Positions 41-63,430 of a stretch of DNA of 64,000 nucleotides are shown here, in pieces. Under the pieces are notes generated by a model that was not told the origin of the DNA, searched no databases, and saw nothing but the letters and a program-made list of their open reading frames with translations. Position numbers and translations under genes: made by a program. The first letter of the stretch is position 1, and each line of letters opens with the position of its first letter. This DNA is from Terrabacter sp. MAHUQ-38. Its GTDB lineage: Bacteria > Actinomycetota > Actinomycetes > Actinomycetales > Dermatophilaceae. The stretch is from contig NZ_JACVCU010000005.1 of NCBI RefSeq assembly GCF_014518425.1, forward strand, positions 310,678 to 374,677. The letters are read 5' to 3'.

Positions 41-439
41 ATGACGGAGCAGACGGGCGAGGTCCAGATCGAGGTCGCCGACAACCCGGAGCGTGGCCGC
101 TTCGAGCTGCGTGACGGCAAGCGGGTCATCGGCGTAGCGAACTACGCACTCGTCCAAGGCGATTCATCGGGCGACGGCCACGGACGCGACCGGGTCGTCT
201 TCTTCCACACCGAGGTCCGCCCCGAGTACGAGGGCCGGGGCCTCGCCGCGCGGCTCGCGTCGGTCGCGCTCGACGAGACCGTCGCGGTCGGCCGCGGGAT
301 CGTCGCGCTGTGCCCGTACATCAAGGTCTACCTGCGCCGCCACCCCGAGCCGTATGCCGCCCACGTCCTGGCGCCGACGCGCGCCGACGTCGACGCAGCC
401 GACCGGGCGGCCGAGCGCGCGGCTGCCGCAGCGGGGTGA
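41..439 (+). CDS. GNAT-family N-acetyltransferase (COG2388/YjdJ-like)
   Basis: A 132-residue single-domain protein of the small GNAT-related family. The acetyl-CoA binding signature is visible as RPEYEGRGLAARL near the middle, followed by the family's C-terminal CPYIKVYLRRHPEPY segment. Such proteins are predicted acetyltransferases whose substrate is unknown. The ATG at 41 was preferred to one at 14 because it removes nine residues without similarity to the family. The stop overlaps the GTG of the next gene (GTGA), so the two are probably translated together. An octamer GTATGCCG lies in the Pro-Tyr-Ala-Ala codons near the end. Confidence 0.8.
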   Translation: MTEQTGEVQIEVADNPERGRFELRDGKRVIGVANYALVQGDSSGDGHGRDRVVFFHTEVRPEYEGRGLAARLASVALDETVAVGRGIVALCPYIKVYLRRHPEPYAAHVLAPTRADVDAADRAAERAAAAAG

Positions 440-1635
440 CCCGGCCGCATGTCGTCGTCGTGGGCGGCGGCATCGTGGGGTCGGCCGTCGCTCGGAACCT
501 GACGCTCCGCGAGCCGCGCCCGGACGTGACGGTCGTCGAGAAGGAGGCTGCCCCCGCAACGCACCAGACGGCGCGCAACAGCGGCGTCGTGCACGCCGGC
601 CTCTACTACGCCCCGGGCTCTGCGAAGGCGACCCTGTCCCGCGAGGGCATGCGTCGACTGCGCACGTACTGCCGTGAGCGAGGCCTGCCGTACGAGGAGG
701 TGGGCAAGCTCGTCGTCGCTCTCGACAGCGTCGAGGAGGCGCGGTTGCGCGACATCGAGGCGCGTGCGGTCGCGAACGGCGTGCCCGGCCTGCGCTGGCT
801 CGACGCTGTCGCCCTGCGCGAGGTCGAGCCGCAGGTCGTCGGGCAGGCGGCGCTGCACTCGCCCACGACCGCCATCACGGACTTCGCGGCGGTGGCGGCC
901 GCGATGCTCGATGACGCTCGTGACGGTGGTGCCGAGGTGCTGACCGGCTTCGAGGTGACCGGGCTCCACCAGGGCTCGGGCCGCGTCGAGGTCCGCAGCA
1001 GCGACGGCCGCCAGGTCATGGCCGACCGGGTCGTCGTCGCGGCAGGGCTGCACGCCGACCGGCTGGCGGTGCTCGCAGGTGACGGACCGGACCCGCGCAT
1101 CGTGCCCTTCCGAGGCGAGTACCACCGCCTCGCGCCCTCGGCGACCCACCTCGTACGAGGACTCGTCTACCCGGTGCCCGACCCCCGCTACCCGTTCCTC
1201 GGCGTGCACCTGACCAGACGCGTGGGCGGCGATGTCCTGCTCGGGCCCAACGCCGTCCTCGCGACCGCTCGGGAGGGCTACCGGCGGCGAGACGTCGACC
1301 CGTCGACCCTGCTCACCCTCGCGGCCTCGCGCGGGTTCCGGCGGTTCGCCCGCGTGAACCTCCGCACGGGCGTGCACGAGATGGTCGGCTCGCTGAGCCG
1401 CCACGCCTTCGTCGAACGCGCCCGTCGCTACGTGCCCGCGATCGAGGCTGCGGACGTGCTTCCCGCAGGCGCTGGGGTCCGGGCCCAGGCGATGGACCCT
1501 GACGGCTCGCTCGTCGAGGACTTCCGGTTCAGCCGCGTCGGCGCCGTGCTCTGCATCCGCAACGCACCCTCCCCCGCCGCGACCGCCTCGCTCGCCATAG
1601 CCGACATGGTCGTGGACCGGCTCGACCTCGGGTGA
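436..1635 (+). CDS. lhgO: L-2-hydroxyglutarate oxidase
   Basis: A 399-residue FAD-dependent oxidoreductase of the DAO superfamily. The Rossmann dinucleotide motif VVGGGIVGSAVAR sits at the N-terminus. The family segment HQTARNSGVVHAGLYY follows, and the C-terminal part carries HEMVGSLSRHAFVE and the RAQAMDPDGSLVEDF stretch typical of LhgO. The enzyme oxidises L-2-hydroxyglutarate to 2-oxoglutarate and passes electrons to the membrane quinone pool, a metabolite-repair role. The GTG at 436 was chosen because it overlaps the upstream stop and places the FAD motif at residue 5; the open frame upstream of it has no similarity. It converges on the APC permease gene with only about 25 bases between. 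Confidence 0.9.
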   Translation: MTRPHVVVVGGGIVGSAVARNLTLREPRPDVTVVEKEAAPATHQTARNSGVVHAGLYYAPGSAKATLSREGMRRLRTYCRERGLPYEEVGKLVVALDSVEEARLRDIEARAVANGVPGLRWLDAVALREVEPQVVGQAALHSPTTAITDFAAVAAAMLDDARDGGAEVLTGFEVTGLHQGSGRVEVRSSDGRQVMADRVVVAAGLHADRLAVLAGDGPDPRIVPFRGEYHRLAPSATHLVRGLVYPVPDPRYPFLGVHLTRRVGGDVLLGPNAVLATAREGYRRRDVDPSTLLTLAASRGFRRFARVNLRTGVHEMVGSLSRHAFVERARRYVPAIEAADVLPAGAGVRAQAMDPDGSLVEDFRFSRVGAVLCIRNAPSPAATASLAIADMVVDRLDLG

Positions 1636-1660
1636 GCGGTCCGCGTGGCACCCGGCCGGG

Positions 1661-2932
1661 TCAGCCGCGTCGGCGCTGCACGACCGCGCGCCCCAGCAGC
1701 CCCACGACCAGGACCACGAGCCCGGCCAGGAGCGACGTGGCCGGCACGGCGAACGCGAGAACCACACAGCCGGCGAGACCGACGACGGCCACGACCCGCG
1801 GGTAGCGGCGGTGAGCAGGGTCCTGCGTGAGCGCCGATGCGTTCGCGACGGCGTAGTAGGTGAGCACCCCGAACGACGAGAAGCCGATGGCCCCGCGCAG
1901 GTCGGTCAGCACCACGAGCACGCACACGAGGACCGCGAGGACGGCCTCGGCGACGTGCGGGACGGCATACCTCTCGTGGACGGCCGCCAGCGGCCGTGGC
2001 AGGTCGCCTTCGCGGGCCATCGCAAGGACGGTGCGGCCGACGCCGGCGATGAGGGCCAGGAGCGCACCGAGGGTGGCGGTCGCCGCCGCGGCTCCGACGA
2101 GCACCGTCAGCCAGCCGGCAGAGGGCACGGTGGCCGCGGCGTCCCGCACCGGAGCGGTGCTGAAGGCCAGGCCTCCCGTGCCCAGCGCCCGTTCGAGCAC
2201 GACGGCCGTGACGGCATACAGGGGCACGACGATCGCGAAGGCGCCGAGGATCGCGCGCGGGATGGTCCGCGCGGGGTCGACGACCTCCTCGCCGAGGGTG
2301 GCGATGCGCGCATAGCCGGCGAACGCGAAGAAGAGGATCGCGGCACCCTGCAGCAGTCCCCCGACCCCCACCTCGGTCACCAGCTCCGCCGCCGGCTGCC
2401 GCCCGGAACCGGGTTCGTGCCCCAGCACCGAGACGGCGACGAGGACGACCACCAGAGCCGCGAGGACGGAGGCCACGATGATCCGGGTGAGCCGCGCCGT
2501 ACGCGTGATGCCTCGGTAGTTGACCGCCGCGAGCGCCACGACGGCGGCGACCCCGACGGGCTTCTGCCAGGGCTGCGGGACCAGGTACGCGGCCACGACG
2601 AGGGCCATGGCAGCACAGCTGGCGGTCTTGCCGATGACGAAGCCCCAGCCCGCGACGAAGCCCCACCAGGGGCCGAGCTGCTCCCGCCCGTAGACGTACG
2701 TGCCCCCGGACGTCGGGTACTGCGCCGCGAGCTGGGCCGAGGAGGCGGCGTTGCAGAAGGCGACGGCGGCAGCGACCCCGAGCGCGGCCAGCAGCCAGTC
2801 GCCGGCGGAGCGGGCCGCCGGCGCGAAGGCGCTGAAGAGCCCGGCGCCCACCATCGACCCGACGCCGAGGATGACGGCGTCGGGCGTGGTGAGGCGCCGG
2901 GCGAGGGACGGTCGTCGACCGTGCGTGCTCAT
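1661..2932 (-). CDS. APC-family amino acid permease
   Basis: A 423-residue integral membrane protein with about 12 hydrophobic segments. The N-terminal signature ILGVGSMVGAGLFSAF is the unwound TM1 substrate-binding segment of amino acid-polyamine-organocation transporters. Conserved TM3 and TM6 regions (YPTSGGTYVYGREQLGPWWG, FFAFAGYARIATLGEEV) are also visible. It should import amino acids or related amines with protons; the substrate cannot be read from the sequence. The ATG at 2932 gives the usual short cytoplasmic tail before TM1. It stands alone and has no obvious operon partner. Two GTATGCCG octamers fall in it, both as Tyr-Ala codons. Confidence 0.85.
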   Translation of the reverse strand: MSTHGRRPSLARRLTTPDAVILGVGSMVGAGLFSAFAPAARSAGDWLLAALGVAAAVAFCNAASSAQLAAQYPTSGGTYVYGREQLGPWWGFVAGWGFVIGKTASCAAMALVVAAYLVPQPWQKPVGVAAVVALAAVNYRGITRTARLTRIIVASVLAALVVVLVAVSVLGHEPGSGRQPAAELVTEVGVGGLLQGAAILFFAFAGYARIATLGEEVVDPARTIPRAILGAFAIVVPLYAVTAVVLERALGTGGLAFSTAPVRDAAATVPSAGWLTVLVGAAAATATLGALLALIAGVGRTVLAMAREGDLPRPLAAVHERYAVPHVAEAVLAVLVCVLVVLTDLRGAIGFSSFGVLTYYAVANASALTQDPAHRRYPRVVAVVGLAGCVVLAFAVPATSLLAGLVVLVVGLLGRAVVQRRRG

Positions 2933-4799: not shown

Positions 4800-4815
4800 G
4801 TGTCCCAACTCCTCA

Positions 4816-5690: not shown

Positions 5691-5800
5691 CCCCGGGGAC
5701 GGTTGACGGGCCGTACCGCTGTCAGTGTGCTCAGGCGTGCTCCGATCCGGGCCCGAGTCCCGTCATCCGTCCCTTCGCTGCCGTATGCCGCGTGGTTGCG

Positions 5801-7910: not shown

Positions 7911-7946
7911 TCACGTATGCCGTGTGGCGCCATGCGGCATACGTGA
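7911..7946. terminator. Bidirectional terminator built from two inverted octamers
   Basis: A perfect 12-base inverted repeat, TCACGTATGCCG and CGGCATACGTGA, with a 12-base spacer lies between two convergent genes. It would fold as a strong hairpin on either strand. Each arm contains the octamer GTATGCCG that is overrepresented throughout the window. Confidence 0.7.
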
Positions 7947-9515: not shown

Positions 9516-12443
9516 TCAGCCCTCGAACGCCTCCGGCGGCGGGCACGAGCACACGAGGTTGCGGTCGCCGTACGCGCCGTCGATGCGGCTGACCGGCGGC
9601 CAGTACTTGTCGGCGGCGTTCACACCGACCGGGAAGGCGGCCTCGGTGCGGTCGTACGGATGCGCCCACTCCCCCGCGATGTTCAGGGCGGTGTGCGGCG
9701 CGTGCCGCAGCATGCTGTCGCCGACGGTGACCTCACCGGCACGGATCGCCTCGATCTCGCCGTGGATCGCGATCATCGCGTCGCAGAAGCGGTCGAGCTC
9801 GTAGAGGTTCTCCGACTCGGTCGGCTCGACCATGAGCGTGCCTGCGACCGGGAAGCTCATCGTCGGGGCGTGGAAGCCGTAGTCGACGAGCCGCTTGGCG
9901 ATGTCGTCGACCGTCACTCCGGTCTCGGCGGTGATCTGGCGGACGTCGAGGATGCACTCGTGCGCGACGAGCCCGTCGTGGCCGGAGTAGAGCACCGGGT
10001 AGTGCTCGCGCAGCCGGGCCGCGACGTAGTTGGCTCCGAGGACCGCCATCTGCGTCGCGTGCCGCAGGCCCTCGCCGCCCATGAGGCGGACGTACGCCCA
10101 CGAGATCGGCAGGATGCTCGCGGACCCGTAGGGCGCGGCCGAGACCGGTCCGACGCCCGAGTCCGGACCGGCCTCCGGGGCGAGCGGGTGGTTGGGCAGG
10201 TGCGGTGCGAGGTGCGCCCGGACCGCCACCGGCCCGACACCGGGACCGCCGCCACCGTGCGGGATGCAGAACGTCTTGTGCAGGTTGAGGTGGCTGACGT
10301 CGGCGCCGAACTTGCCCGGCTGGGCGAGCCCGACGAGGGCGTTGAGGTTGGCGCCGTCGACGTACACCTGGCCGCCCGCGTCGTGCACGAGCTCGCACAG
10401 CTCGGTGATGGTGTCCTCGTAGACGCCGTGCGTCGACGGGTAGGTCACCATGATCGCGGCGAGGTCGTCGCGGTGCGCCTCGACCTTCTCGCGCAGGTCG
10501 TCCATGTCGACGGTGCCACCGGGGGCGGTCTTGACGACGACGACCTTGAGGCCGGCCATCACGGCCGAGGCCGCGTTGGTGCCGTGGGCGCTGGCCGGGA
10601 TCAGGCAGACGCGGCGGTGGCCCTCGCCGCGTGCCTGGTGGTAGGCGTGGATCGCGAGGAGGCCGGCGAACTCGCCCTGGGAGCCGGCGTTGGGCTGCAG
10701 CGACACGGCGTCGTAGCCGGTGATCTCGCACAGCCAGCCGGACAGGTCGTCGATGAGGGCCCTGATGCCCTCGGTCTGCTCGGCCGGCGCGAACGGGTGG
10801 AGGTTCGCGAACTCCGGCCAGGTGACCGACTCCATCTCCGTCGTCGCGTTGAGCTTCATCGTGCACGAGCCGAGCGGGATCATGCCGCGGTCGAGCGCGA
10901 AGTCGCGGTCGGAGAGACGGCGCAGGTAGCGCAGCATCGCCGTCTCCGAGTGGTGCGAGTGGAAGACCGGGTGGGTGAGGAACTCCGACGAGCGCTGAAG
11001 CCCAGCCGGAATGCCGCCGCCGACGGGCGTGCCGAGGGTGTTCTTCACGTCGTCGGACGCCGGCAGGCCGAACGCGTCGAGGACCGCGAGCACCGTTGCG
11101 GCAGTGGACGTCTCGTCCAGGCTGAGGGACACCCGGTCGGCGTCGACCCGCCACACGTTGATGCCGCGCTCGGCGAAGGTGGCCGTGACGTCGCCCGCAC
11201 GGCCCGGCACGATGACGGTCAGCGTGTCGAAGAACGCAGCGGTCTCGACGTCCAGCCCACCGGCGACGAGGGCTTCGCGCAGGCGTGCGGTCAGGCCGTT
11301 CACCCGGCGGGCGATGCCGACGAGACCCGCGGGACCGTGCCACACGGCATACATGCTCGCCATGACGGCGAGGAGAACCTGGGCGGTGCAGATGTTGGAC
11401 GTCGCCTTCTCGCGACGGATGTGCTGCTCGCGCGTCTGGAGCGCGAGGCGGTACGCCTGGTGTCCCTCGGCGTCGACGGACACGCCGACCAGGCGGCCGG
11501 GGATCTGGCGCTCCAGGCCACGGTGGACGGCCATGTAGCCGGCGTGCGGGCCGCCGAAGCCCATCGGCACCCCGAAACGCTGGGCGCTTCCGACGGCGAT
11601 GTCGGCGCCCCACTCACCGGGAGCGCTGGCCAGGGTCAGCGCGAGCAGGTCGGCGCACGTCGTGACGAGCCCCTTCGACTCGTGCACGGCGTCGGTGAGC
11701 GGGGTCCAGTCGACGATCTCGCCGGTGGCGTCGGGGTACTGGACCATGGCACCGACGACGTCCTTGCCGCCCGCGGCGGCGGCCAACGACTCGGTGTCTC
11801 GCACGGCCCGCAGGTCGGCGACGACGAGCGGTAGGCCGAGCGCTTCGGCGCGGGTGCGCATGACGGCGATCGTCTGCGGGAAGAGACGCTCGTCGACGAG
11901 GACGACGGCGTCGGCGGCCGCCCGGCTGGCGCGACGCATGAGCGACATGGCCTCGGCCGCGGCGGTCGACTCGTCGAGCAGGGACGAGCCCGCGACGTCG
12001 AGGCCCGTGAGGTCGGTGACGACCGTCTGGAAGTTGAGGAGCGCCTCGAGGCGGCCCTGCGAGATCTCCGGCTGGTACGGCGTGTACGCGGTGTACCACG
12101 CGGGGTTCTCGAGGACGTTGCGGCGCACGACCGGCGGCGTCACGGTGCCGTAGTAGCCAAGCCCTATCAGCGAGGTGAGGACGGTGTTGCGGGAGGCGAA
12201 CGCGCGCAGCTCGTCGATGACGGCACTCTCGCTCGCGGCGGCCTCGACCTGCAGCGGGGCCTCGGAGCGGATGGTGCCGGGGATGGCGCGGTCGCACATC
12301 GCGTCGAGGCTCGGCTGGCCCACGACCTCGAGCATGCGGCGCAGGTCGTCGCCGGCGGGGCCGACGTGGCGGCTCACGAAGTCGGCCATCTGCGTCTCGG
12401 TGGACACTCCGGTGGTCACGGGCACGAGCTGGTCGATCGACAT
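9516..12443 (-). CDS. gcvP: Glycine dehydrogenase (decarboxylating), P-protein
   Basis: A 975-residue single-chain P-protein, the PLP enzyme that decarboxylates glycine and loads the aminomethyl group on GcvH lipoyl. The N-terminal half begins with [12 protein letters not shown]. In the C-terminal half the PLP lysine lies in [18 protein letters not shown] and the Gly-rich loop follows. Its length is normal for the fused type. The ATG at 12443 is preceded by an AGGAG ribosome site. It is controlled by a glycine riboswitch in its leader. gcvH lies about 3 kb away on the same strand, in the order known from M. tuberculosis Rv1826-Rv1832; gcvT is not in the window. Confidence 0.97.
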
Positions 12444-12611: not shown

Positions 12612-12665
12612 CAGGGTCGATCGGCAGGGCCAAATCTACCAGCAGGCGGGAGCGCTGCGGGCACG

Positions 12666-18327: not shown

Positions 18328-18938
18328 GGCGTCGCCCCCTGGGCGGGACCGGGACCGCGCCTCAGCACGGTCCGCGCGTGGACGGCATACAGCACGGCGG
18401 CCAGCCAGTAGAGCACCACGCCCCACCACGCGAAGCCCCAGCCGATGGGTCGCGCGAGCTCACCGACCCAGTCGTCACGGTGCGCGAGGAGCAGCAGGGG
18501 GAAGGCGTAGAGCAGGTTGAACGTCGCCGCCTTGCCGACGAAGTGGACCGGCAGGCCGAGCTGCCCCTTGGTGCGCAGGTAGAGCAGCATGAGCGCCATG
18601 ACCGCCTCGCGGGCGAGCAGGACGACGACGAGCCAGACGGGGATGATGTCGCGCCAGGCCAGCCCGAAGAGGGTCGTCAGGATGTAGAGCCGGTCGGCGA
18701 TCGGGTCGAGGAACTGGCCCAGACGGCTCTCCATGTCGAACACGCGGGCGATCTTGCCGTCGAGGTAGTCGGTGATGCCGGATAGGAGCAGGAGGAGCAG
18801 CGCGAGGGCGTCACGCTCGGAGAGGATCGCCCACAGGAAGACCGGCACGCCGAGCAGCCGCAGCACCGACAGGGCGTTGGGGATCGTCAGCAGCCGCTCT
18901 GACACGACGTGCTCGCGTACTGCCTTCTCGACCTCCAC
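18324..18938 (-). CDS. CDP-alcohol phosphatidyltransferase (PgsA2-like)
   Basis: A 204-residue membrane enzyme. The complete CDP-alcohol phosphotransferase motif D-x2-DG-x2-AR-x8-G-x3-D-x3-D is present (DYLDGKIAR ... GQFLDPIADR), including all catalytic Asp residues. About six membrane segments. It transfers a phosphatidyl group from CDP-diacylglycerol to an alcohol such as glycerol-3-phosphate; the exact acceptor is uncertain because actinobacteria have several paralogues. It heads the pgsA-DUF881-sbp-DUF881 chain. The GTG at 18938 was chosen over weaker upstream options. It is divergent from the YibE/F gene. Confidence 0.88.
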   Translation of the reverse strand: MEVEKAVREHVVSERLLTIPNALSVLRLLGVPVFLWAILSERDALALLLLLLSGITDYLDGKIARVFDMESRLGQFLDPIADRLYILTTLFGLAWRDIIPVWLVVVLLAREAVMALMLLYLRTKGQLGLPVHFVGKAATFNLLYAFPLLLLAHRDDWVGELARPIGWGFAWWGVVLYWLAAVLYAVHARTVLRRGPGPAQGATP

Positions 18939-19067: not shown

Positions 19068-20504
19068 ATGCCCGGCGGACACGCGCACTCGCACGCCCAC
19101 GGTTCCGACGACGCTCACGCGAAGGTGAGGGTGAGCGCGCTGGCGCGGGTCGGCCTGACGCTGTTCCTCGTCCTCGCAGCGGCAGCCACCGTGTTCGGCG
19201 TCGTCCGCTACTGGCCGGGCGACGCCCGGACCCCCAACCAGGTGCGCACGACCGACTTCGCCGCACCGGGCGTCACCTTCCCGGTCGCCGAGGTCCAGAA
19301 GATGCTGCCGCCCTGCGAGGGAGCCGACGCAGGTGCGGGTGCGAAGCCGGCCGAGGGCCAGGGCGGCGACGTCGCCGCATCGGACGCGACGTGCGGTGCG
19401 ATGACGGTGCAGCTCGAGCAGCCCACGGCCACCTCGGGCGACGTGCGTCCCACCGTCTCGGTATCGGTGCCCCCGGCGATCTCCACGTCCGGGCTGCGCG
19501 AGGGCGACACGGTCCAGCTGCTGCGGATCCCGGCGCAGGACGACCAACCGGAGGCGTACTCCTTCCTGCAGGTGCAGCGCGGCGCACCGCTGTCCCTCAT
19601 GCTGGCGCTCTTCCTCGTCGTCGTCGCCGTCGTGGCTCGCTGGCGGGGCCTCCTCGCGCTCGTCGGGCTCGGTTTCGGCGGACTCGTCGTCGTCAAGTTC
19701 ATGCTGCCCGCACTGCTCGACGGCCAGTCCGGGCTCCTCGTCGCGCTCATCGGGTCCTCGGCGATCATGTTCGTCGTCCTCTACCTCGCCCACGGACTCT
19801 CGGTGCGCACCAGCACCGCGCTGGCCGGCACCCTGTTCGGCGTGGCGATCACGGCAGGGTTGGGGCTGCTCGCGGTGGACATGGCGCGCCTCAGCGGGGT
19901 GGCGGACGACGAGGGTGCCACCCTGGCGGCGTTCATCACGACGATGAGCCCACAGGAGCTGCTGACGTGCGCGATCATCGTCGCCGGCCTGGGTGTCCTC
20001 AACGACGTGACGATCACCCAGTCCTCCGCGGTGTGGGAGCTGCGGGCCGCGGCCCCGGGCATGGGTCGCCGCGAGCTGTTCCACTCCGGCATGCGGATCG
20101 GGCGCGACCACATCGCCTCGACGATCTACACGATCGTCTTCGCGTATGCCGGTGCGGCCCTGCCGGTGCTGCTGCTCCTCTTCCTCTACGACCGTCCCGT
20201 GCTCGACCTGCTCCAGACCGAGTCGCTCTCCGAGGAGATCGTGCGCACCCTCGCGAGTGCGATCGGGCTAGTGCTGGCCGTGCCGGCGACGACCGCGATC
20301 GCCGCCCTGACGGTCGGCTCGGCGAAGGCCCCGAAGGCTGCGCCCAGGGGCGACCAACCGGGCGAGCCCGGTCACTCCGTGCCGGCCGGGGTGGCGGGCG
20401 TCCACGGGGCGGGGCCGTCCGCCGCCGACCTCGTTCGCGCCGCGAGCGGTCCCCCGCCGCCGTCGACGCGGGCAGAGGCCCGCTCGCGGATGTCCTCGAG
20501 CTGA
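19068..20504 (+). CDS. YibE/F family membrane protein
   Basis: A 478-residue protein. A His-rich N-terminus (GGHAHSHAHGSDDAHAK) precedes one membrane helix and an extracytoplasmic domain of about 130 residues. Seven or more membrane segments of the YibE/F-like domain follow, with AHGLSVRTSTALAGTLFGV and GVLNDVTITQSSAVWEL as conserved blocks. The C-terminal 60 residues are cytoplasmic and low complexity. The family is a predicted transporter whose substrate is unknown; the His-rich tail could bind metal (inference). The gene is divergent from pgsA and starts with ATG at 19068. Confidence 0.85.
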   Translation: MPGGHAHSHAHGSDDAHAKVRVSALARVGLTLFLVLAAAATVFGVVRYWPGDARTPNQVRTTDFAAPGVTFPVAEVQKMLPPCEGADAGAGAKPAEGQGGDVAASDATCGAMTVQLEQPTATSGDVRPTVSVSVPPAISTSGLREGDTVQLLRIPAQDDQPEAYSFLQVQRGAPLSLMLALFLVVVAVVARWRGLLALVGLGFGGLVVVKFMLPALLDGQSGLLVALIGSSAIMFVVLYLAHGLSVRTSTALAGTLFGVAITAGLGLLAVDMARLSGVADDEGATLAAFITTMSPQELLTCAIIVAGLGVLNDVTITQSSAVWELRAAAPGMGRRELFHSGMRIGRDHIASTIYTIVFAYAGAALPVLLLLFLYDRPVLDLLQTESLSEEIVRTLASAIGLVLAVPATTAIAALTVGSAKAPKAAPRGDQPGEPGHSVPAGVAGVHGAGPSAADLVRAASGPPPPSTRAEARSRMSSS

Positions 20505-20564: not shown

Positions 20565-21359
20565 ATGCATCGTGTGACGACCCTTGAGGCGTTCGAGGAC
20601 GACCGGGGCAACCGCATCGAGTTCGAGGGGAGGGTCGAGGACAACATCCGGCTGAAGTTCAAGGGACGCAACAACGTCCTGCGGGTCGCCGGCCAGGCGA
20701 ACATCGCCCAGCTGTTCGTCGACTTCGACTGCGACAACGGCCTCGTCGAGATCGGCCCGAGCCGGGGTGTCCCTCCCCTGCGCGCCGCGATCCGCGTCGG
20801 CGACGGCTGCACCGTGACGATCGGGCGCAACGTCTCGTGCACCACGACGGTCGCCATGTCGACGGCCGAGGGCACCTCCATCACGATCGGTGACGACGTC
20901 ATGATCGCCACGGACATCGAGATCCGTGCCGACGACGGCCACCCCATCTTCGACATCCGCACGGGCAAGCGGGTCAACGTCTCTCGTTCCATCGTCATCG
21001 GCAACCACGTCTGGCTGGGCCTCGGCTCGTGCGTGCTGGGCGGCGTGACGATCGGAGACGGCAGCGTCGTCGGCATGCGCTCCGTCGTGACGCGTTCGCT
21101 GCCCAACAACGTCGTCGCCGCGGGTTCGCCGGCCAAGGTCGTCAAGCGCGACGTGGCCTGGGAGCGGCCTCACCTGACCATGACAGCACCGTTCCACAAG
21201 CCCACGGTCGACACGGTGAAGAAGTCGACCTACTGGATGCTCACGGCTGAAGGCAACGCCGCACCGAAGCCGCACCGGTCGGTGTATGCCGGCGCGCGTC
21301 GTCGGGCGAAGAAGGTACTGAAGCGCGTGCGGGCCACGGTGGCTCGGCCAGGGCGTTAG
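20565..21359 (+). CDS. Left-handed beta-helix acyltransferase (hexapeptide repeat)
   Basis: A 264-residue protein with repeated hexapeptide turns (for example CTVTIGRNVSCTTTVAMS, TSITIGDDVMIATDIEI) and the acyl-CoA site typical of sugar O- or N-acetyltransferases: HPIFDIRTGKRVN, NHVWLGLGSCVLGGVTIG and VVAAGSPAKVVKRDV. The catalytic His is expected in DDGHPIF. Such enzymes acetylate sugars in capsules or other glycans; the acceptor here is unknown. The C-terminus is very basic. It stands alone, on the plus strand, next to a secreted-protein cluster on the other strand, which could point to a cell-surface role. Confidence 0.85.
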   Translation: MHRVTTLEAFEDDRGNRIEFEGRVEDNIRLKFKGRNNVLRVAGQANIAQLFVDFDCDNGLVEIGPSRGVPPLRAAIRVGDGCTVTIGRNVSCTTTVAMSTAEGTSITIGDDVMIATDIEIRADDGHPIFDIRTGKRVNVSRSIVIGNHVWLGLGSCVLGGVTIGDGSVVGMRSVVTRSLPNNVVAAGSPAKVVKRDVAWERPHLTMTAPFHKPTVDTVKKSTYWMLTAEGNAAPKPHRSVYAGARRRAKKVLKRVRATVARPGR

Positions 21360-21372: not shown

Positions 21373-22905
21373 TCAGCCGCTGAAGTTCCGCGAGGTCGGG
21401 GCGCTCACCGCTCCCCCGCGGATGCCGTGCACCCAGAAGGTCTGGTTGCCGTTCTTCGTCCCGAACGTGTGGGGAGAGGTACAGGAGACCCAGCCCGTCG
21501 CCAGGGGCGTGCTGTTGCCGGAGGTGAGCTGGCACTCGTAGGTGTAGCCCGTGAGGCTCGTCCACGTCGCGAGGGCCGTACCGACCGCGGGGACGACCAC
21601 GAGGTTGGCCGGAGGGGCGATGGTCGCCACGACCTCGATCGACTGCGACTTCTGCGGCGCGGCCTCGTAGGCGGCGTTGCCCGGCTGGTCGGCCAGTACG
21701 GTGCACGTGCCGGCGGCGACGTAGGTGACGGTCGTCCCGCTGACGGTGCAGACCGCGGTCGTGCTCGTCGAGAAGGCCACGGCCAGTCCTGACGTCGCCG
21801 AGGCGCTCACCGTGTATGCCGTGCCGCCCACGGTCGCGTTCGTCGGCGCGGCCGAGGTGAAGGTCACCGTCTGGGTGGCCTTGACGACGGTGAACGACTG
21901 CGAGACCTGCGGGGCCGCGGCGTACGTCACGTTGCCAGGCTGGGCGGCGGAGACGGTGCACGTGCCGGCGGCGACGTAGGTGACGGTCGTCCCGCTGACG
22001 GTGCAGACCGCGGTCGTGCTCGTCGAGAAGGCCACGGCCAGTCCTGACGTCGCCGAGGCGCTCACCGTGTATGCCGTGCCGCCCACGGTCGCGTTCGTCG
22101 GCGCGGCCGAGGTGAAGGTCACCGTCTGGGACTGCTTGTTCACGACCTCTACCACTGGCGCCGACGTGGAGCCGGCCCAGGAGCCAGATGCGGCGTAGGC
22201 GGCCGTCAGCTCATGGCTGCCCGGGGACGCGTAGGCGACGCGGCACGTCGCCACACCCGACGCGTCGAGGGTCTGGCTCCCGGACGTGCACGAGATGGTC
22301 GAGCCGGCGTCGCTGAAGGTGACGGTCCCGGACGGCGTGGTCTGGCCTGAAGCCGACACCACGGTCGCCGTGTAGGTGACGGTCTGCCCGACGGTGGCGG
22401 GGTTCGGGGTCGCCGAGAGAGTCGTCGTGGTTGCGACCGCCTTGTGCACCGTCACGACGGCACTGGGAACGCTCGCCGCGGTCCACCCGGAGCGGACGCC
22501 GACCACGGTGTAGCGGTACGTCCCGTCGGGGACCGAGCTGTCGGTGCAGGAGGTCCCCGTGACCGGGGACGAGGAGGTGCTGCCGCACGCCGCGCTCTGG
22601 TCCCCGCTGGTCGTGCTGGTGCGCACGACCACGTAACCCGTCGCGGCCACGCCCGTCGAGGCGGCCGCCCACGCGACGGACACGTTCGTGCCGCCGACGG
22701 GGACGGTGCCCGTGACCGCGGTGGGGGCTGCGAGGGTGGTCGTCCTGGCGGCGCCGGAGCCGCCCCCCAGGGAGGCCCAGGACGACCAGGCGCTGCCGCA
22801 GACCGCCATGAGCGTCACGAACAGCGTGGAGACGTGAAGGGCGCGCACGCCGCGGCTCACTGCGGCACGGCGTGCGCGCGTCTGCGGGGTCGCCAGGAAC
22901 GGCAT
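21373..22905 (-). CDS. Secreted Ig-like repeat protein
   Basis: A 510-residue predicted exported protein. A hydrophobic N-terminal segment (VSTLFVTLMAVCGSAWSSW) is followed by a fibronectin-like domain (about residues 60-150), a bacterial Ig-like domain (about 155-250; TPSGTVTFSDAGST), two near-identical repeats of 85 residues (SQTVTFTSAAPTNATVGG each), and a C-terminal domain with paired cysteines. No sorting motif or membrane tail is seen, so it may be released or held by partners. Its ATG overlaps the stop of the small upstream gene (TGATG). The function is unknown; a surface adhesive or matrix role is an inference. Confidence 0.8.
   Translation of the reverse strand: MPFLATPQTRARRAAVSRGVRALHVSTLFVTLMAVCGSAWSSWASLGGGSGAARTTTLAAPTAVTGTVPVGGTNVSVAWAAASTGVAATGYVVVRTSTTSGDQSAACGSTSSSPVTGTSCTDSSVPDGTYRYTVVGVRSGWTAASVPSAVVTVHKAVATTTTLSATPNPATVGQTVTYTATVVSASGQTTPSGTVTFSDAGSTISCTSGSQTLDASGVATCRVAYASPGSHELTAAYAASGSWAGSTSAPVVEVVNKQSQTVTFTSAAPTNATVGGTAYTVSASATSGLAVAFSTSTTAVCTVSGTTVTYVAAGTCTVSAAQPGNVTYAAAPQVSQSFTVVKATQTVTFTSAAPTNATVGGTAYTVSASATSGLAVAFSTSTTAVCTVSGTTVTYVAAGTCTVLADQPGNAAYEAAPQKSQSIEVVATIAPPANLVVVPAVGTALATWTSLTGYTYECQLTSGNSTPLATGWVSCTSPHTFGTKNGNQTFWVHGIRGGAVSAPTSRNFSG
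21698..21875 (-). repeat. Perfect direct repeat, copy 1, inside the Ig-repeat gene
   Basis: These 178 bases are identical, by eye, to 21953-22130. The repeat period is 255 bases, exactly 85 codons, so loss or gain of a unit by recombination would keep the frame. Identity at silent sites points to recent duplication or gene conversion. Confidence 0.9.
21953..22130 (-). repeat. Perfect direct repeat, copy 2, inside the Ig-repeat gene
   Basis: Second copy of the 178-base repeat, same orientation and frame as copy 1. The 77 bases between the copies are diverged and encode the variable part of the 85-residue Ig-like module. Confidence 0.9.
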
Positions 22906-44274: not shown

Positions 44275-44352
44275 GCTGGGAGCCTAGCGAGGGCGCCTGG
44301 TCCGGCCATCCGGCATACCGTGCCCTGGTGGGCACGCCCGAGCCCGGCGTAT

Positions 44353-47419: not shown

Positions 47420-49720
47420 TCAGGTGCGCATGACGGCGTCGGTCGACTTGCTGCCGTTGACGCGGTAGACGTCGAAGACGCCGTCGATGCGGCGCACCGC
47501 CTTGATGACGTGGTCCAGGTGCGCCGGGTCGCCCATCTCGAAGGTGAACCTCGAGATCGCGACCCGGTCGCGCGACGTCTGGACCGACGCCGAGAGGATG
47601 TTGACGTGCTGGTCGGACAGCACCCGGGTCACATCGCTGAGCAGCCGGTTGCGGTCGAGCGCCTCCACCTGGAGCTGGACGAGGAAGACGCTGGCCGAGC
47701 TGGGCGCCCACTCGACGTCGATGAGCCGCTCCGGGTTGGCCGTCAGCTGGTCGGCGTTGGTGCAGTCGACGCGGTGCACCGAGACGCCGTTGCCGCGCGT
47801 GACGAAGCCGATGATCGGGTCGCCGGGCACGGGCGTGCAGCACTTGGCCAGCTTGACCCAGACATCGGCGGTGCCGACGACGACGACACCCGGGTCGCCC
47901 GACCGGCGGCGCGTCGCCGCTCGGGTCGGGACGGTGGCCTCGGCGAGGTCCTCGGTGGCTCCGTCGACACCCCCCATCGAGGTGACGACCTTGCTGACGA
48001 CGTGCTGCGCGGAGACATGGCCCTCGCCCACGGCGGCATACAGCGCCTCGATGTCCTGGTAGCGCAGGTCGGTCGCCACGGCCGTCATCGACTCGTGGCT
48101 CATCAGGCGCTGGAGCGGGAGGTTCTGCTTGCGCAGGGCCTTCGCGATCGAGTCCTTGCCGGCCTCGATGGCTTCCTCGCGACGCTCCTTGCTGAACCAC
48201 TGCTTGATCTTGTTGCGCGCCCGGGGGCTCTTGACGAACTGCAGCCAGTCGCGCGACGGTCCGGCGCCGTCGGCCTTGGAGGTGAGCACCTCGACGACGT
48301 CGCCGTTCTCGAGCGTCGACTCGAGCGGGACGAGCCGGCCGTTGACGCGCGCCCCGATGCAGTGGTGACCGACCTCGGTGTGCACGGCATACGCGAAGTC
48401 GACTGGTGTGCCGCCCACGGGCAGCGCGACGACCGAGCCCTTCGGGGTGAAGACGTAGACCTCGCTGCTGCCCATCTCGAAGCGCAGCGAGTCGAGGAAC
48501 TCGCCCGGGTCCTCGGTCTCTCGCTGCCAGTCGAGCAGCTGGCGCAGCCAGGCCATGTCGTTCTGCGGCGTGATCTCGCCGGGCCGCGCCGGCCCTCCGC
48601 CAGTCGCCTGGTCCTTGTACTTCCAGTGCGCCGCGACGCCGTACTCGGCACGTCGGTGCATCGTGTGGGTGCGGATCTGGATCTCGACCGGCTTGCCCTG
48701 CGGGCCGATGACGGTGGTGTGCAGCGACTGGTACATGTTGAACTTCGGCATCGCGATGTAGTCCTTGAACCGGCCCGGGACCGGGTTCCACCGAGAGTGC
48801 AGGGCGCCGAGCGCGGCGTAGCAGTCGCGCACCGTGTCGACGAGGACGCGCACCGCGACGAGGTCGTAGATCTCCTCGAAGTCACGGCCGCGCACGATCA
48901 TCTTCTGGTACACGGAGTAGTAGTGCTTCGGCCGGCCCGTCACCGCGGCCTTGATCTTGGCGGCGGTGAGGTCGTCGGTGACCTGGCTGCGTACGCCGGC
49001 GAGGTACTCCTCACGCGCCGGTGCCCGCTCGGCGACGAGGCGCACGATCTCGTCGTACACCTTCGGGTAGAGCGTCGCGAAGGAGAGGTCCTCGAGCTCC
49101 CACTTGATGGTGTTCATGCCGAGGCGGTGCGCGAGCGGTGCATAGATCTCGAGGGTCTCGTTGGCCTTGCGCTTGGCCGACTCGGGACTGACGTAGCGCC
49201 ACGTGCGCGCGTTGTGCAGACGGTCGGCGAGCTTGATGACGAGCACGCGGATGTCGCGTGCCATCGCGATGACCATCTTGCGCACGGTCTCGGCCTGGGC
49301 GGCCTCGCCGTAGGTCACCTTGTCGAGCTTGGTCACGCCGTCGACGAGCATCGCGATCTCGTCGCCGAAGTCGCGTCGCAGCTCGTCGAGGCCGTATGCC
49401 GTGTCCTCGACAGTGTCGTGCAGCAGCGCCGCCGCGAGCGTCGGCGGGGTCATGCCGAGCTCGGCGAGGATCGTCGTCACGGCGAGCGGGTGCGTGATGT
49501 ACGCGTCGCCGCTCTTGCGCATCTGCCCCTCGTGGGCGCGCTCCGCGACGGCATACGCCCGCTCGATGACCGACAGGTCGGCCTTGGGGTGGTTCTGGCG
49601 GACGGCCGTCATGAGGGGCTCGAGGACTGGGTTGCCCGCCGGCCGGGTGGCCCCGAACCGTGCGAAGCGGGCGCGCACCCGCGAGGGGGTGGACAGCTCG
49701 CTGCGGACGTCCTCGCTCAT
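47420..49720 (-). CDS. relA: Bifunctional (p)ppGpp synthetase/hydrolase
   Basis: A 766-residue RSH protein. The N-terminal hydrolase domain keeps its HD motif ([13 protein letters not shown]), the synthetase domain has [13 protein letters not shown] and ADRLHNART-flanked helices, followed by TGS ([20 protein letters not shown]), conserved-Cys ([16 protein letters not shown]) and ACT regions. Both activities are expected intact. It governs the stringent response. apt lies 28 bases upstream on the same strand, as in mycobacteria. Confidence 0.97.
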
Positions 49721-55153: not shown

Positions 55154-55752
55154 CGTCCGAGCTCCTGGAGGGCCGCGCGCAGCAGCGCGGAGACTCCGGC
55201 GCCGTCCGCGGCGAGGGGCGCGATCCGGTCGAGCGCGTCGTCGGACTGCCGCACGGTCCAGCCGAGCCCCACGAGTGCCTCGCGGACCTGCTCGCGCCAC
55301 TCCTCCCCCGAGTCGAGGCGAACCGGCGCGGCCGTCCCTGCGGAGCCGGGCAGTGCGCCGAGCTTGTCCCGCAGCTCGAGCACCATGCGTTCGGCCCCCT
55401 TCTTGCCGATGCCGGGCACCTTGGTCAGCGCGACGACGTCGCCGGTGCCGAGGGCGATGCGCACGGCGTCGGGCGAGTGCACGGCGAGCACGGCGAGGGC
55501 GAGCCGAGGGCCGACGCCGGACACGGTCTGCACCGTTTCGAAGACGTGCTTCTCGTCATCGGTGGCGAAGCCGTAGAGGGTCAGGGAGTCCTCGCGAACC
55601 ACGAGACTGGTGGCGAGCTCGGTGGGCTGCCCGGTGCGCACGGACGCCGCCGTGGCGGGCGTCGTGTGGACGAGCATGCCGACTCCCCCGACGCCGACGA
55701 CGACGGAGTCGAGGCCCACCTTGAGGACGGTGCCGGAGAGCGAGGCGATCAT
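55150..55752 (-). CDS. ruvA: Holliday junction DNA helicase RuvA
   Basis: A 200-residue protein with an OB fold ([20 protein letters not shown]), two helix-hairpin-helix motifs ([16 protein letters not shown] and [20 protein letters not shown]) and a C-terminal RuvB-binding domain. It binds four-way DNA junctions. The ATG overlaps the ruvC stop (ATGA). Confidence 0.96.
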
Positions 55753-56402
55753 CGGGACTGGGCTCCAGGGTTGCTTCGGGTGGGGCGAGGAGTGCGAATC
55801 GCGGGGTTGGGCCCGGAGGCCGTGCGTCGGGCCGGCACGGCGCCCGGCGGCACGCGTCGGGGTATGCCGCTGCCTCGGCCTGCAGTGCGTGCGAGCTGCT
55901 CGAGGCGTGCCTCCTCGAGGCGGCTCTGGGTGCCTCCGCGCCAGACGTGACAGATCGCCAGGGCGAGGGCGTCGGCGGCATCGGCAGGTCGGGGCGGAGT
56001 GTCGAGCCCGAGGAGCTGGGTGACCATCGTCGTGACCTGGGCCTTGTCGGCGCGCCCGCTGCCGCTCACCGCCGCCTTGACCTCGGTGGGCGTGTGCAGG
56101 GCCACGGGCAGCCCGCGCCGCTCGGCGAGCATCATGACGATGCCGGTCACCTGAGCGGTGCCCATGACGGTCGAGACGTTGGTGTCGGCGAAGACCCGCT
56201 CGATGGCCACCGCCTCGGGGCGGTGGCGCTCGAACCAGGAGCGCATCTCGTCCTCGATGGCGACGAGCCGTTTCGGGGTCGGGTCGCCCGACGGCGTACG
56301 GATGACCCCGACCTCGACGAGCGAGAGCCGTCGCCCGGGAACGCCGTCGACGACGCCCACGCCGCATCGGGTCAGGCCGGGGTCGACCGCGAGGACGCGC
56401 AC
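55749..56402 (-). CDS. ruvC: Crossover junction endodeoxyribonuclease RuvC
   Basis: A 217-residue Holliday junction nuclease. Catalytic acidic residues appear in [18 protein letters not shown] (Asp7), [13 protein letters not shown] (Glu) and [13 protein letters not shown] (Asp pair). A basic, Pro-rich C-terminal tail of about 50 residues is extra. GTG start at 56402: the ribosome site AGGAGG is directly followed by the octamer GTATGCCG, which overlaps the start codon. Confidence 0.96.
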
Positions 56403-56481
56403 GGCATACCTCCTGGGTCGTGGTGGCTGGGGCGATCCGAACAGGTGTTCGGGACAACGCTAACGGGGCCGCCCCGAAACG

Positions 56482-59411: not shown

Positions 59412-60435
59412 GCAGTCCCCACCGAGGCCTCCGGCGCCGTGGGTGCACGAGGAGGTCGACGTTGTCGCTCCACTGCTCGACCGACCCGACGCCGCGTGGC
59501 AGCGCCCGCACGACGGGGTCGGTGACGCCCGCCTCCAGGAGGGCGACGACCTCCTCCCGCACGCCGCGGTAGGGCCGGTCCCAGAACGGCTCCACGGGGT
59601 CGTCGGCCACCGGGAGGCCGGCCGCGTCCTGGACCGCGTTGAGGGTGCGGATGGCGTCGACGAGCCCCGACTCGCGCTCACGCCAGTCAGCCGACGTCAC
59701 CGCCCGCTGGAGAGACCCGACCGCCGCGGCCGCCCGCGGCAGGCGTGCGAAGCTCGTACCGAGCCACTTGGCGTAGGGCGGCCACCGTCGCTCGAGCAGG
59801 TGCCCCAGGTGCAGAGCGACGCCGGTCAGCCGCGCCGCGACGACGCTCGACCCGAGGTCGTCCCCGCGTTCCGCCGTCCGCCCCACGAACGGCAGCTCCT
59901 GTGCCAGTCGGGCCCAGTCGGTGGCGACGACGTGACGCCACACGTCGTCCGGGTACCACGCGAGCCGCTTCCGTATGCCGTGCAGCTCACCCGCGTCGTC
60001 GGCGAACACCTCCCCGGCCGTGACCTCCAGGACGGCCTGGCCCGTGAGCGACAGCCAGTCCTCGACGTCGAGGTCGCCGGTCGGGTCGAGGCCCAGACGT
60101 GAGACCGCGAGGTCGCGAGCGGTCTCGACCTGGACGCGGTGGCGCATGCCCGGGTCCCACGTGGTGGGGAACCGTGTCGGATGGCCCTCGTACTCGTCCG
60201 GGAGGCACTCGGTGAGATGGGCGTCGACGTCGGCGACCGCCTCGGTGGGGACGAGGAGGTTGAGGCGCAGTCCCCAGTCGTGGTCGCGCGACATGCCGTC
60301 GTCGAGGCCGAGGACGTCCGAGCCGCTGCCCAGCCGGCCGGCTGCATGCGGCAGGCCGGGCCACCGCCGACGGACGAGAGGCCCGACGACGTGTTCGTAG
60401 TACGACCGCGACAGCTCGGCTCCGGTGGCGTCCAC
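59404..60435 (-). CDS. DUF4037 nucleotidyltransferase-like protein
   Basis: A 343-residue protein. RLGSGSDVLGLDDGMSRDHD carries the GS-x-D-type nucleotidyltransferase motif, and HRVQVETARDLAVSRLGLD and GELHGIRKRLAWYPDDVWRH are DUF4037 blocks. The family is predicted to transfer nucleotides to an unknown target. GTG start at 60435. It lies between pdxS and kynU. Confidence 0.82.
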   Translation of the reverse strand: MDATGAELSRSYYEHVVGPLVRRRWPGLPHAAGRLGSGSDVLGLDDGMSRDHDWGLRLNLLVPTEAVADVDAHLTECLPDEYEGHPTRFPTTWDPGMRHRVQVETARDLAVSRLGLDPTGDLDVEDWLSLTGQAVLEVTAGEVFADDAGELHGIRKRLAWYPDDVWRHVVATDWARLAQELPFVGRTAERGDDLGSSVVAARLTGVALHLGHLLERRWPPYAKWLGTSFARLPRAAAAVGSLQRAVTSADWRERESGLVDAIRTLNAVQDAAGLPVADDPVEPFWDRPYRGVREEVVALLEAGVTDPVVRALPRGVGSVEQWSDNVDLLVHPRRRRPRWGLLR

Positions 60436-61541: not shown

Positions 61542-61712
61542 GATGTCCTGCTTTCCCGTGATCTGGTCTGGGGTTGCCTCAAAGGGTAGGCCCAGACCGG
61601 CCCTGCGCACGACACGGTCCCTGCTCGTGGGCACCGCTGTGACGGACGTCGCGTGGGGTTCCCTGTCGTGGCCGGGCGCAAGCCCCGCCCCTGACCGGCT
61701 CCGTACGGCGTG

Positions 61713-62264
61713 TCAGCTGACCGACAGGTGCTCGGGCGACTCGTCGTTGAACTCGACCGTGTGCGGCATCGTCGTGTAGCCCGCGAGGTGGAACAACCGG
61801 ATCGCCCACTTGCGGCGGACGCGGCGCACGTCGGTGACGGCGTCGTTGTGGAAGCGCCGGGCGAGCTGGACGCGGTTGCACGCCGACGTCAGGCGGGACA
61901 GCACATCGGTACCGAGGGCGCTCGCCCGGAGGCCGTCGACCGCCTCCGGTGTGAGCGCGAGGTCGAGGGCCTCGGTGAGGTCGCTCTCGGCCTGCTCACG
62001 GGCGTGGCCATGCTCCGAGGGAGCCTCCAGCGACTGCGCAGCGGCGTTGGCGAGGATGAGCGAGGTCGCACCGTCGAGCAGCCCGCTGTTGGCGAGCTCG
62101 ACGACCGCTTCGGCGCGACGCACGAGACGGGCGTCGAGAGCCGCGAGCGTGCCGCTGAGGCGCACGTGCAGCCGGTCGAGCCGAGCCGCGGTGTAGGAGA
62201 GGTACCAGCCGACGATGACGAGCACGAACAAGATCGCGAAAACCCAGGAGAGAACCTCGCTCAC
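61713..62264 (-). CDS. LemA-like membrane protein
   Basis: A 183-residue protein with one N-terminal membrane helix (WVFAILFVLVIVGWYLSY) and a long helical cytoplasmic domain with AARLDRLHVRLSGTLAALDA, RAEAVVELANSG and RLTSACNRVQLARRFHNDAV, similar to the LemA fold. Function unknown. The GTG overlaps the pimA stop (GTGA), so it is in the pimA operon, at the place of Rv2609c in M. tuberculosis. Confidence 0.78.
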   Translation of the reverse strand: MSEVLSWVFAILFVLVIVGWYLSYTAARLDRLHVRLSGTLAALDARLVRRAEAVVELANSGLLDGATSLILANAAAQSLEAPSEHGHAREQAESDLTEALDLALTPEAVDGLRASALGTDVLSRLTSACNRVQLARRFHNDAVTDVRRVRRKWAIRLFHLAGYTTMPHTVEFNDESPEHLSVS

Positions 62265-63430
62265 CGGGCGCCCCCGCGCAGGAAACGGTTCCAGCGGCCC
62301 TGCGCCGGCATCGCGGCTGCCCGACCCTCGATGACCGTCTCGTAGACCGCGAGGATCTCGTCGGCCACGACCGACCAGTCGAAGATCCGCGCGCGCCGCT
62401 GGCCCGCCTCGGCGAGCTCGGCCCGCCGCTCGGGACGGCGCAGCAGGTCCACCAGGGTGCGCGCCAGAGCGTCGGGCTGCTCGTTGGCGAACATCGCGCC
62501 CGCCTGACCGCCGTCGAGCACCCGGGAGAACGCCGACAGGTCGCTGGCCAGGACGCAGGCGCCGGCACTCATCGCCTCGATGAGGATGATGCCGAAGCTC
62601 TCGCCGCCGGTGTTGGGCGCGACATACACGTCCACCGACGCGAGCAGGGAGGCTTTGTCGTCGTCGGACACCGAGCCGAGGAACTCGCACGCGGCGACGA
62701 CCTCGGCCGGCCAGCCCTCGGTCACGTCGTCGGGGTCGCCCGGTCCGGCGACGAGCACCCGCAGGCCGGGCACGGAGCGCAGCACCTCCGGCAGGGCCGC
62801 TGCGAGGACAGGGAGACCCTTGCGCGGCTCGCCCATGCGGCCGAGGAAGGCGATCGTCGGGGCTGTGGGCGTGCCGATCCACGGTGAACGCCGCGGCGCC
62901 TCGGCGAACCGGTCGACGTAGACACCGTTGGGGATGACGACGGCGTCGCCGCCGACGTGCGTCGTGACGGTGCGACGCGCGTCCTCGCTGACCGCGATGC
63001 GGCCGGCGATCTTCTCGAGGCTCGGCCGGATGATGGGGTATGCCGTCTGCATCGTCCGCGAGCGCAGCATCGACGTGTGGAAGGTCGCGACGATCGGACC
63101 TTCCGCGGCCATGAGCGCGAGCACGCTGACACTGGGCGTCACGGGCTCGTGCAGGTGCAGGACGTCGAACTCGCCGGCGTCGAGCCACTTGCCGACCTTC
63201 GAGGCGGTGACGGGACCGAAGTTGAGGCGCGCGACGGAGCCGTTGTAGCGCACCGCGGTGGCGCGACCCGCCGACGTGACGTAGCCGGGCAGCTCTGTCT
63301 CGCTGTCGGCGGGCGCGAGGACGGAGACGTCGTGGCCCTGGCCGATGAGGTGCTCGGCGAGGTCGCGGACGTGGAACTGCACCCCACCCGGCACGTCGAA
63401 CGAGTAAGGACAGACGATCCCGATCCTCAC
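62261..63430 (-). CDS. pimA: Phosphatidyl-myo-inositol alpha-mannosyltransferase PimA
   Basis: A 389-residue GT4 glycosyltransferase. RIGIVCPYSFDVPGGVQFHV is the PimA N-terminus, HLHEPVTPSVSVLALM and RMGEPRKGLPVLAAALPEVL follow, and the nucleotide-sugar site is GESFGIILIEAMSAG. It moves mannose from GDP-mannose to phosphatidylinositol on the inner membrane face. GTG start overlaps the upstream stop (GTGA). Confidence 0.93.
   Translation of the reverse strand: MRIGIVCPYSFDVPGGVQFHVRDLAEHLIGQGHDVSVLAPADSETELPGYVTSAGRATAVRYNGSVARLNFGPVTASKVGKWLDAGEFDVLHLHEPVTPSVSVLALMAAEGPIVATFHTSMLRSRTMQTAYPIIRPSLEKIAGRIAVSEDARRTVTTHVGGDAVVIPNGVYVDRFAEAPRRSPWIGTPTAPTIAFLGRMGEPRKGLPVLAAALPEVLRSVPGLRVLVAGPGDPDDVTEGWPAEVVAACEFLGSVSDDDKASLLASVDVYVAPNTGGESFGIILIEAMSAGACVLASDLSAFSRVLDGGQAGAMFANEQPDALARTLVDLLRRPERRAELAEAGQRRARIFDWSVVADEILAVYETVIEGRAAAMPAQGRWNRFLRGGAR

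Follow-up and report, generated by a model that had tools for sequence, protein, structure and literature searches.

An octamer, GTATGCCG, is repeated far beyond expectation in the genome of the actinobacterium Terrabacter sp. MAHUQ-38, and it is probably a DNA uptake sequence (DUS) of this organism, or works like one, in the fuller form C-GTATGCCG-T. The word was noticed in a stretch of 64,000 nucleotides from contig NZ_JACVCU010000005.1 (GCF_014518425.1), here called the window. A preliminary description of the window had reported 29 copies, and an exact recount agreed: 16 lie on the plus strand and 13 on the minus strand, from 352 to 63045. Its figure of about 72% G+C needed correction, the measured value being 70.9%. 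Below, G-numbers denote genomes, lower-case g-numbers genera, and L-numbers loci or stretches sampled.

In 100 dinucleotide shuffles of the window the word occurred 0.83 times on average and at most 4 times, and under a second-order Markov model it was the top-ranked octamer by z-score. The complete genome (5,156,829 bases, 18 contigs) contained 1006 forward and 1018 reverse copies, 2024 altogether, compared with 167+142 for a control in which the pattern was read backwards. It was again the top octamer by z-score in 400 contiguous kb of contig 1 (186 copies, 8.9 expected), and with the word masked from the background, 239 copies were seen in 534 kb of the genome against an expectation of 5.3. 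The genome-wide count against a Markov background that had been proposed earlier therefore left the word far above expectation, and its copy number lies in the range of hundreds to thousands that characterizes DNA uptake sequences. C preceded the word in 61% of copies and T followed it in 46%. Its reverse complement, CGGCATAC, differs from it, and the word is thus not a palindrome; the same holds for GGATGCCG, GTACGCCG and CGAAGGGG, words discussed below. Two of these, GGATGCCG and GTACGCCG, were also over-represented in the Terrabacter genome (139 observed and 55 expected; 81 observed and 38 expected). In the Tetrasphaera phage TJE1, a single phage of lower G+C, GTATGCCG occurred 2 times in 49 kb where 0.94 were expected.

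Codon or protein bias was considered as a cause of the repetition and ruled out by the spread over reading registers and by the shares of TAT and ATA codons that fall within the word. Window copies were read as TAT-GCC in 13 cases, GCA-TAC in 7 and GGC-ATA in 4, with 5 outside genes, as first described. Across the 534 kb of Terrabacter sequence, 180 of 240 copies lay in called genes and all six registers were used (95, 55, 14, 12, 2 and 2 copies); the word is thus not confined to a single register, though two registers hold 150 of the 180 coding copies. TAT makes up 8.1% of tyrosine codons there and ATA 0.9% of isoleucine codons, yet 95 of the 221 TAT codons and 14 of the 49 ATA codons stood inside the word. 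The corresponding figures for a relative, G469, were 93 of 576 and 26 of 59.

The two strands of the Terrabacter genome carry nearly equal numbers (1006/1018), a balance also characteristic of uptake sequences. Because the Terrabacter contigs are unordered, polarity relative to replication was assessed in G469, a single contig in which the sign of the GC skew reverses near the midpoint. Over 20 stretches, each of 20 kb, the G-rich strand carried 127 copies and the opposite strand 124 (p 0.90; 59/50 and 76/66 in the two halves). The lack of polarity noted initially, from the 16/13 split in the window, thus holds for the replichores of a second genome, and replication polarity of the kind seen in KOPS or Chi was rejected. 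A Chi-kind recombination signal, recognized by a helicase-nuclease when double-strand breaks are repaired, would also be a frequent non-palindromic octamer, and its turnover between clades is possible. Such a signal is expected to be polar to replication, however, and no polarity was seen in G469; nor would it be expected to produce the surplus of hairpin-order pairs described next. We regard this explanation as very improbable.

Pairs of the word in hairpin order, GTATGCCG-(4 to 34)-CGGCATAC, were found at 32 places in the genome, and the reversed-pattern control at 1. The opposite order was found at 14 places (control 6). Independent placing would give about 6 places per order (1006 x 1018 / 5,156,829 x 31), so both orders were in excess, the hairpin order more strongly. 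Inverted pairs of this kind are a further feature of uptake sequences. Many of the 32 pairs continued, as judged by eye, into long stems. Among five pairs examined in context, four were intergenic (two of them between convergent genes) and one was within a gene; placement of the hairpins at gene ends therefore rests on few cases. The terminator proposed at 7911-7946 of the window was borne out as a structure: its arms, 7915-7922 and 7935-7942, lie between two convergent genes and fold at -28.2 kcal/mol (z -5.1). A role as terminator motif only was rejected, since no more than 64 of the 2024 copies can belong to the 32 hairpin pairs.

The word is concentrated in Terrabacter's own family. In a draw of 394 genomes from the class, 5 of the 8 genomes of this family carried 1192-2476 copies of GTATGCCG; the highest count in the 386 genomes of other families was 386, in a 7.5-Mb genome, 2.2 times its control. 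In a survey of 186 genomes from 53 genera of the family (word-rich genomes tallied by hand), 107 had at least 380 copies, with a maximum of 2376+2348 in G489. A dozen or so genomes were intermediate, and whole genera were near control. All 9 sampled genomes of Terrabacter's own genus had the word. The region around relA was compared in 80 loci among the matches listed, by title 10 from the family and 70 from other families. Of the RelA proteins listed, the nearest (92%) came from an Intrasporangium sp. metagenome bin, and those of Knoellia, Janibacter, Phycicoccus and Flexivirga followed among the next. Among these listed matches, GTATGCCG occurred 18 times in 22 kb in Janibacter sp. HTCC2649, 14 times in Knoellia sp. 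Soil729, 10 times in Flexivirga meconopsidis and 4 times in 14.9 kb of an Intrasporangium bin, and an Ornithinibacter bin had 5 copies together with 11 of GGATGCCG in 14.6 kb. No copy was present in the listed loci of Phycicoccus avicenniae, Mobilicoccus massiliensis, a Mobilicoccus bin and Janibacter massiliensis, or in a 3.4-kb Intrasporangiaceae piece; the 70 listed loci of other families had 13 copies in 1.43 Mb. As a side observation, G303, from another family of the class, had 94+76 copies (control 9+18), where its drawn family-mates had at most 57 in total; it is possibly a separate and weaker case.

Relatives poor in GTATGCCG carried other words. A frame-aware Markov scan of stretches from such genomes, in which words present in many registers were sought, returned GGATGCCG in G565 and G408, CGAAGGGG in G443, G454 and G178, and GTACGCC, with G as the next base, or often C in G405. 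GGATGCCG reached 983-2258 copies per strand in 7 of the 186 genomes (G408, G409, G424-G427, G565) and 111-674 elsewhere, including 610+629 in Terrabacter. CGTACGCC totaled at least 1128 in 9 genomes (G395, G396, G404-G406, G474, G478-G480), some of them weak, and 389+405 in Terrabacter; counts were strongest in G405 and G478-G480, and g170 and G405 were the clearest cases. In 40 kb of G479, GTACGCCG occurred 42 times and 6.9 were expected under the frame-aware model; its background was 211 copies in the 1.43 Mb of other families among the matches listed. GTATGCCG, GGATGCCG and GTACGCC share G1, A3, G5, C6 and C7, forming dialects with a common core as uptake sequences do. CGAAGGGG is unrelated in sequence and outside this core. 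It reached 592-1615 copies per strand in all 19 sampled genomes of g162 (16) and g5 (3), where GTATGCCG was present at just 2-23 per strand, and 32-209 elsewhere. In these two genera it takes the form CGAAGGGG(G/T) (for example in L043-L046, L057-L058 and L189-L190), and 35 of 96 and 13 of 35 sampled copies were outside gene calls.

Evidence for further words was slighter. GTATGCGG occurred 9 times in G415 (L193) against 0.45 expected, a weak case for another dialect because it comes from one 20-kb stretch. An excess of GGTCTACG in G399 was confined to few registers and is not claimed as a dialect. Beside CGAAGGGG, G454 (L189-L190) showed CCTGAGGA (12 against 0.65) and CTCCCTTC (11 against 0.55) in many registers, and in 80 kb of G548 (L047-L050) repeat words, ACTGATTG and ACTCGCAA among them, stood between genes at 6-7 copies. 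Samples of 40-80 kb from each of G503, G128, G305, G428, G402, G394, G485, G541, G458, G488, G473, G410 and G548 showed no clear iterated word, although a rarer dialect might be missed in samples of this size.

Words also differed within genera. In g150, G424 and G425 carried 1805-2258 copies of GGATGCCG and 143-185 of GTATGCCG per strand, and G426 and G427 carried two words, with 983-1116 of GGATGCCG and 566-623 of GTATGCCG. Two species of g140 had CGTACGCC totals of 1676 and 1842, and the third had 454. In g168, G475 had 1829+1852 copies of GTATGCCG compared to 10+9 in G474, and 38+50 of CGTACGCC compared to 564+564. When 12 GTATGCCG sites of G475 were aligned with G474, 4 had become GTACGCCG there and 4 GTACGACG, changes that might simply reflect decay toward the common codon. 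The case for a clean switch of dialect in G474 is weakened: its GTACGCC forms may be the common tyrosine codon TAC returning, and the top words there were GTACGGCG and GTACGACG. In a tree of ComEC (a quick method, one gene, 44 rows, several forks below 95), rows labelled GTAC fell in two places, one of them G474, and rows labelled GGAT in two.

Copies were kept between near relatives and were missing from one long region. Seventy of 81 copies were intact in near relatives; the retention of all octamers predicted 43, and that of CpG-containing octamers matched for A+T predicted 45. The sites are not independent, since the 8 rows behind them represent 7 pairs of loci and 4 of these rows share one Terrabacter locus. 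In the 400 kb of contig 1, the mean gap between copies was 2154 bases. The longest gap, 26,285 bases (contig 1 64,882-91,167, L078-L079), had a G+C of 0.657, and we read it as an integrated element, a low-GC island; its genes, judged by their translations, presumably include an integrase, a primase and an excisionase. A given 26-kb interval would contain no copy with a probability of 5e-6; if the gap is taken as the largest among roughly 185, the probability is about 1e-3. The second-longest gap held a transposase-like gene and the third ordinary-looking genes. The six 5-kb windows below 67% G+C averaged 0.33 copies each, and the remaining 100 averaged 2.36 (p 3e-4). Such a gap fits any slow build-up of the word, and uptake is not alone in predicting it.

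Genome-wide spread, strand balance and an island without the word would likewise be expected if GTATGCCG were the binding site of an abundant chromosome-organizing or silencing protein. However, 180 of the 240 sampled copies were within genes, and sister genera with different words, together with the mixed genomes G426 and G427, suggest a drive at each site, which weak selection per site could hardly supply. This explanation is, in our judgment, very unlikely. A mutational or repair bias turning near-matches into the word would likewise generate numerous functionless copies and would pass over newly acquired DNA. It should use up one-mismatch neighbors of GTATGCCG, yet these were enriched 1.49, 1.37, 1.31 and 1.40 times in four data sets, with shuffled-word controls averaging 1.01-1.03 and 1.3-3.7% of them attaining the observed ratio. 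Enrichment rather than depletion speaks against conversion of near-matches, which would also leave the hairpin pairs and the differing words of sister genera unexplained, and we hold it to be extremely unlikely.

Genes for DNA uptake are present in Terrabacter. comEA (SLBB, HHH_3) directly precedes comEC (Competence, Lactamase_B), and a Tad locus encodes two T2SSF proteins, a T2SSE ATPase, an AAA_31 ATPase, RcpC, TadE and two Flp pilins. Competence genes, which the preliminary description had proposed to look for, were thus found. The receptor may perhaps lie on the Tad-type pilus or be ComEA. One T2SSF protein of the Tad locus (L195:14247-16244, minus strand) has an N-terminal von Willebrand A domain. 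Four relatives have a second pilin type, which we take to be DUF4244-like and which resembles, by eye, that of Micrococcus luteus. PilT matches above cut-off in two family genomes (G476 and G567), with strong partial ones on two contigs of G569, point to a rare type IVa pilus in the family.

We favor uptake bias as the origin of the word. A surface DNA receptor of the competence machinery would prefer DNA bearing it, and fragments of kin DNA with a copy would enter and recombine more often. Transformation would then spread alleles that keep or gain the word, which would accumulate where coding and expression allow. If receptor preference shifted, old copies would decay while those of a different dialect, such as GGATGCCG or GTACGCC, or of an unrelated word, CGAAGGGG, increased. 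The thousands of sites, the use of other words by sister genera and the two-word genomes together suggest a force acting on each site, and uptake bias would be a force of this site-by-site kind; it is also the account preferred for the Neisseriaceae DUS in the available part of PMC3630211. The early comparison with DNA uptake sequences gains circumstantial support from the clade variants, two-word genomes, hairpins, island and retention in near relatives. The transformability of Terrabacter, the dependence of uptake on the word and the identity of the receptor are all matters that we infer.

Several observations weigh against uptake bias. ComEC (PF03772) was found in 180 of the 186 family genomes, with or without the word. 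Flp_Fap was found in 91 and its presence did not track the word: word-rich members of g3 and g145 had no Flp_Fap match, and 11 of 12 members of the word-less g180 had one. Among the best 10 candidates per genome, PilT (TIGR01420) was above cut-off in 2 of 186 genomes (G476 and G567) and not in Terrabacter, so that a type IVa pilus machine of the Neisseria type is not evident in the family; no search aimed at ComP was made. None of the three was retained as a predictor of the word across the 186 genomes, and their survey yielded no receptor for it. Word-less genomes were interspersed with word-bearing ones, and in the ComEC tree word-less rows were scattered, one (G488) adjoining Terrabacter's genus. 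The GTACGCC excess, above all in G474, may partly reflect the usual tyrosine codon TAC returning. Aligned sites gave no case of GGATGCCG exchanged for GTATGCCG between G424 and G426 or G427, and none of 6 GTATGCCG sites of G426 read GGATGCCG in G424; conversion of dialects site by site was therefore not seen in g150, where, judging from the alignments, old sites appear to decay and new ones to arise at other places. At about 80% identity, G426 retained 4 of 15 sites of G424, and G476 retained 2 of 9 sites of G475, indicating turnover. The excess outside gene calls was modest in Terrabacter (60 of 240 copies in 14% of the 534 kb) and small in G469 (44 of 251, the calls leaving 14.1%). Word density over G+C quintiles was 1.05, 1.76, 2.38, 3.38 and 2.64; because it rises with local G+C, the low-GC gap is partly confounded by composition. 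Finally, we found no uptake or transformation data for family members in the literature.

The window copies are listed below. Gene bounds come from a simple gene finder of our own, whose calls span 92.5% of the window and which performs poorly on islands. We take the gene at 55749-56402 to be ruvC-like, and the copy first described as overlapping the ruvC start does so by a single base. A glycine riboswitch lies at 12520-12619 on the minus strand, upstream of the gene at 9516-12443, presumably a glycine dehydrogenase, with which such a riboswitch is commonly associated.

Exact copies of GTATGCCG in the window, with strand and position relative to called genes
Position	Strand	Context
352..359	+	within gene 41-439
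1963..1970	-	within gene 1661-2932
2212..2219	-	within gene 1661-2932
5783..5790	+	intergenic, convergent genes 4908-5690 (+) and 5801-6340 (-)
7915..7922	+	left hairpin arm, between convergent genes
7935..7942	-	right arm of the hairpin with left arm 7915..7922
11345..11352	-	within gene 9516-12443
18383..18390	-	within gene 18324-18938
20144..20151	+	within gene 19068-20504
21284..21291	+	within gene 20574-21359
21814..21821	+	within gene 21373-22905
22069..22076	+	within gene 21373-22905
25498..25505	+	within gene 23962-27126
26691..26698	+	within gene 23962-27126
31768..31775	+	within gene 31157-32656
32491..32498	-	within gene 31157-32656
35562..35569	+	within gene 35226-35975
36595..36602	-	within gene 36185-36841
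39324..39331	+	within gene 39003-39797
40135..40142	-	within gene 39983-41098
44311..44318	-	intergenic, genes 43573-44274 (-) and 44504-45349 (+)
48034..48041	-	within relA-like gene 47420-49720
48385..48392	-	within relA-like gene 47420-49720
49394..49401	+	within relA-like gene 47420-49720
49549..49556	-	within relA-like gene 47420-49720
55862..55869	+	within ruvC-like gene 55749-56402
56402..56409	-	1-base overlap with ruvC-like gene start as called
59973..59980	+	within gene 59404-60435
63038..63045	+	within gene 62261-63430

DNA uptake sequences are known only in Neisseriaceae and Pasteurellaceae according to the available part of a 2025 paper (PMC12616744). With somewhat less confidence than for the function of GTATGCCG itself, we lean toward a third, independently arisen system, the first in Gram-positives. 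It would extend over a single actinobacterial family and comprise at least four words, three of them related dialects and one unrelated; its dialects would have changed repeatedly, and its receptor would not belong to the ComP/type IVa pilus line. Our literature search found no report of such a word in Actinobacteria or in this family, most subscription papers and all preprints being outside its coverage. If the reading is correct, a third case, in Gram-positives, would mean that uptake words evolve repeatedly, and gene exchange from one genus to another would be impeded by the dialects. About a hundred species would become candidates for natural transformation, and donor DNA bearing the word could help to transform them. 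Relatives with differing words and genomes with two would serve as natural experiments on the receptor and on the origin of the word.

The preliminary description had offered HIP1-like repeats beside uptake sequences, and this half of its comparison fits less well. Like cyanobacterial HIP1, GTATGCCG is a highly iterated octamer of one clade, and HIP1 is discussed together with orphan methyltransferases in the accessible text of PMC4390886. A word of this type would be kept through an orphan DNA methyltransferase with linked repair or marking, its dialects following methyltransferase specificity, and thousands of copies in a limited clade would fit. HIP1 is, however, an 8-base palindrome, which GTATGCCG, GGATGCCG, GTACGCCG and CGAAGGGG are not, and the likeness is weaker for that reason; hairpin pairs and two-word genomes would also be left unexplained. 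We consider such an origin distinctly unlikely.

Among known cases of natural transformation, M. luteus takes up DNA with Flp pili, comEA and comEC and has no comG cluster (PMC6370729, available part). Terrabacter is similar in having comEA-comEC and a Tad/Flp locus. The two differ in that the available part of that paper mentions no uptake word for M. luteus, and in that Flp_Fap does not track the word in Terrabacter's family. Pasteurellaceae uptake sequences are, as far as the accessible part of PMC12616744 goes, an iterated asymmetric word in two dialects with a common core. Iteration, asymmetry and core-sharing dialects are also seen here; the word and lineage are different, and no AT-rich extension was present within 12 bases either side of GTATGCCG. 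A further parallel is with the DUS of Neisseriaceae, for which the available part of PMC3630211 describes thousands of copies, terminator-linked inverted pairs, eight dialects that share a core, five genomes that show no obvious DUS and one species with two dialects. The putative system described here likewise has a short word in thousands of copies, inverted pairs, dialects, word-less members and two-word genomes. It differs in belonging to an actinobacterial family and in having two genera that carry an unrelated word.

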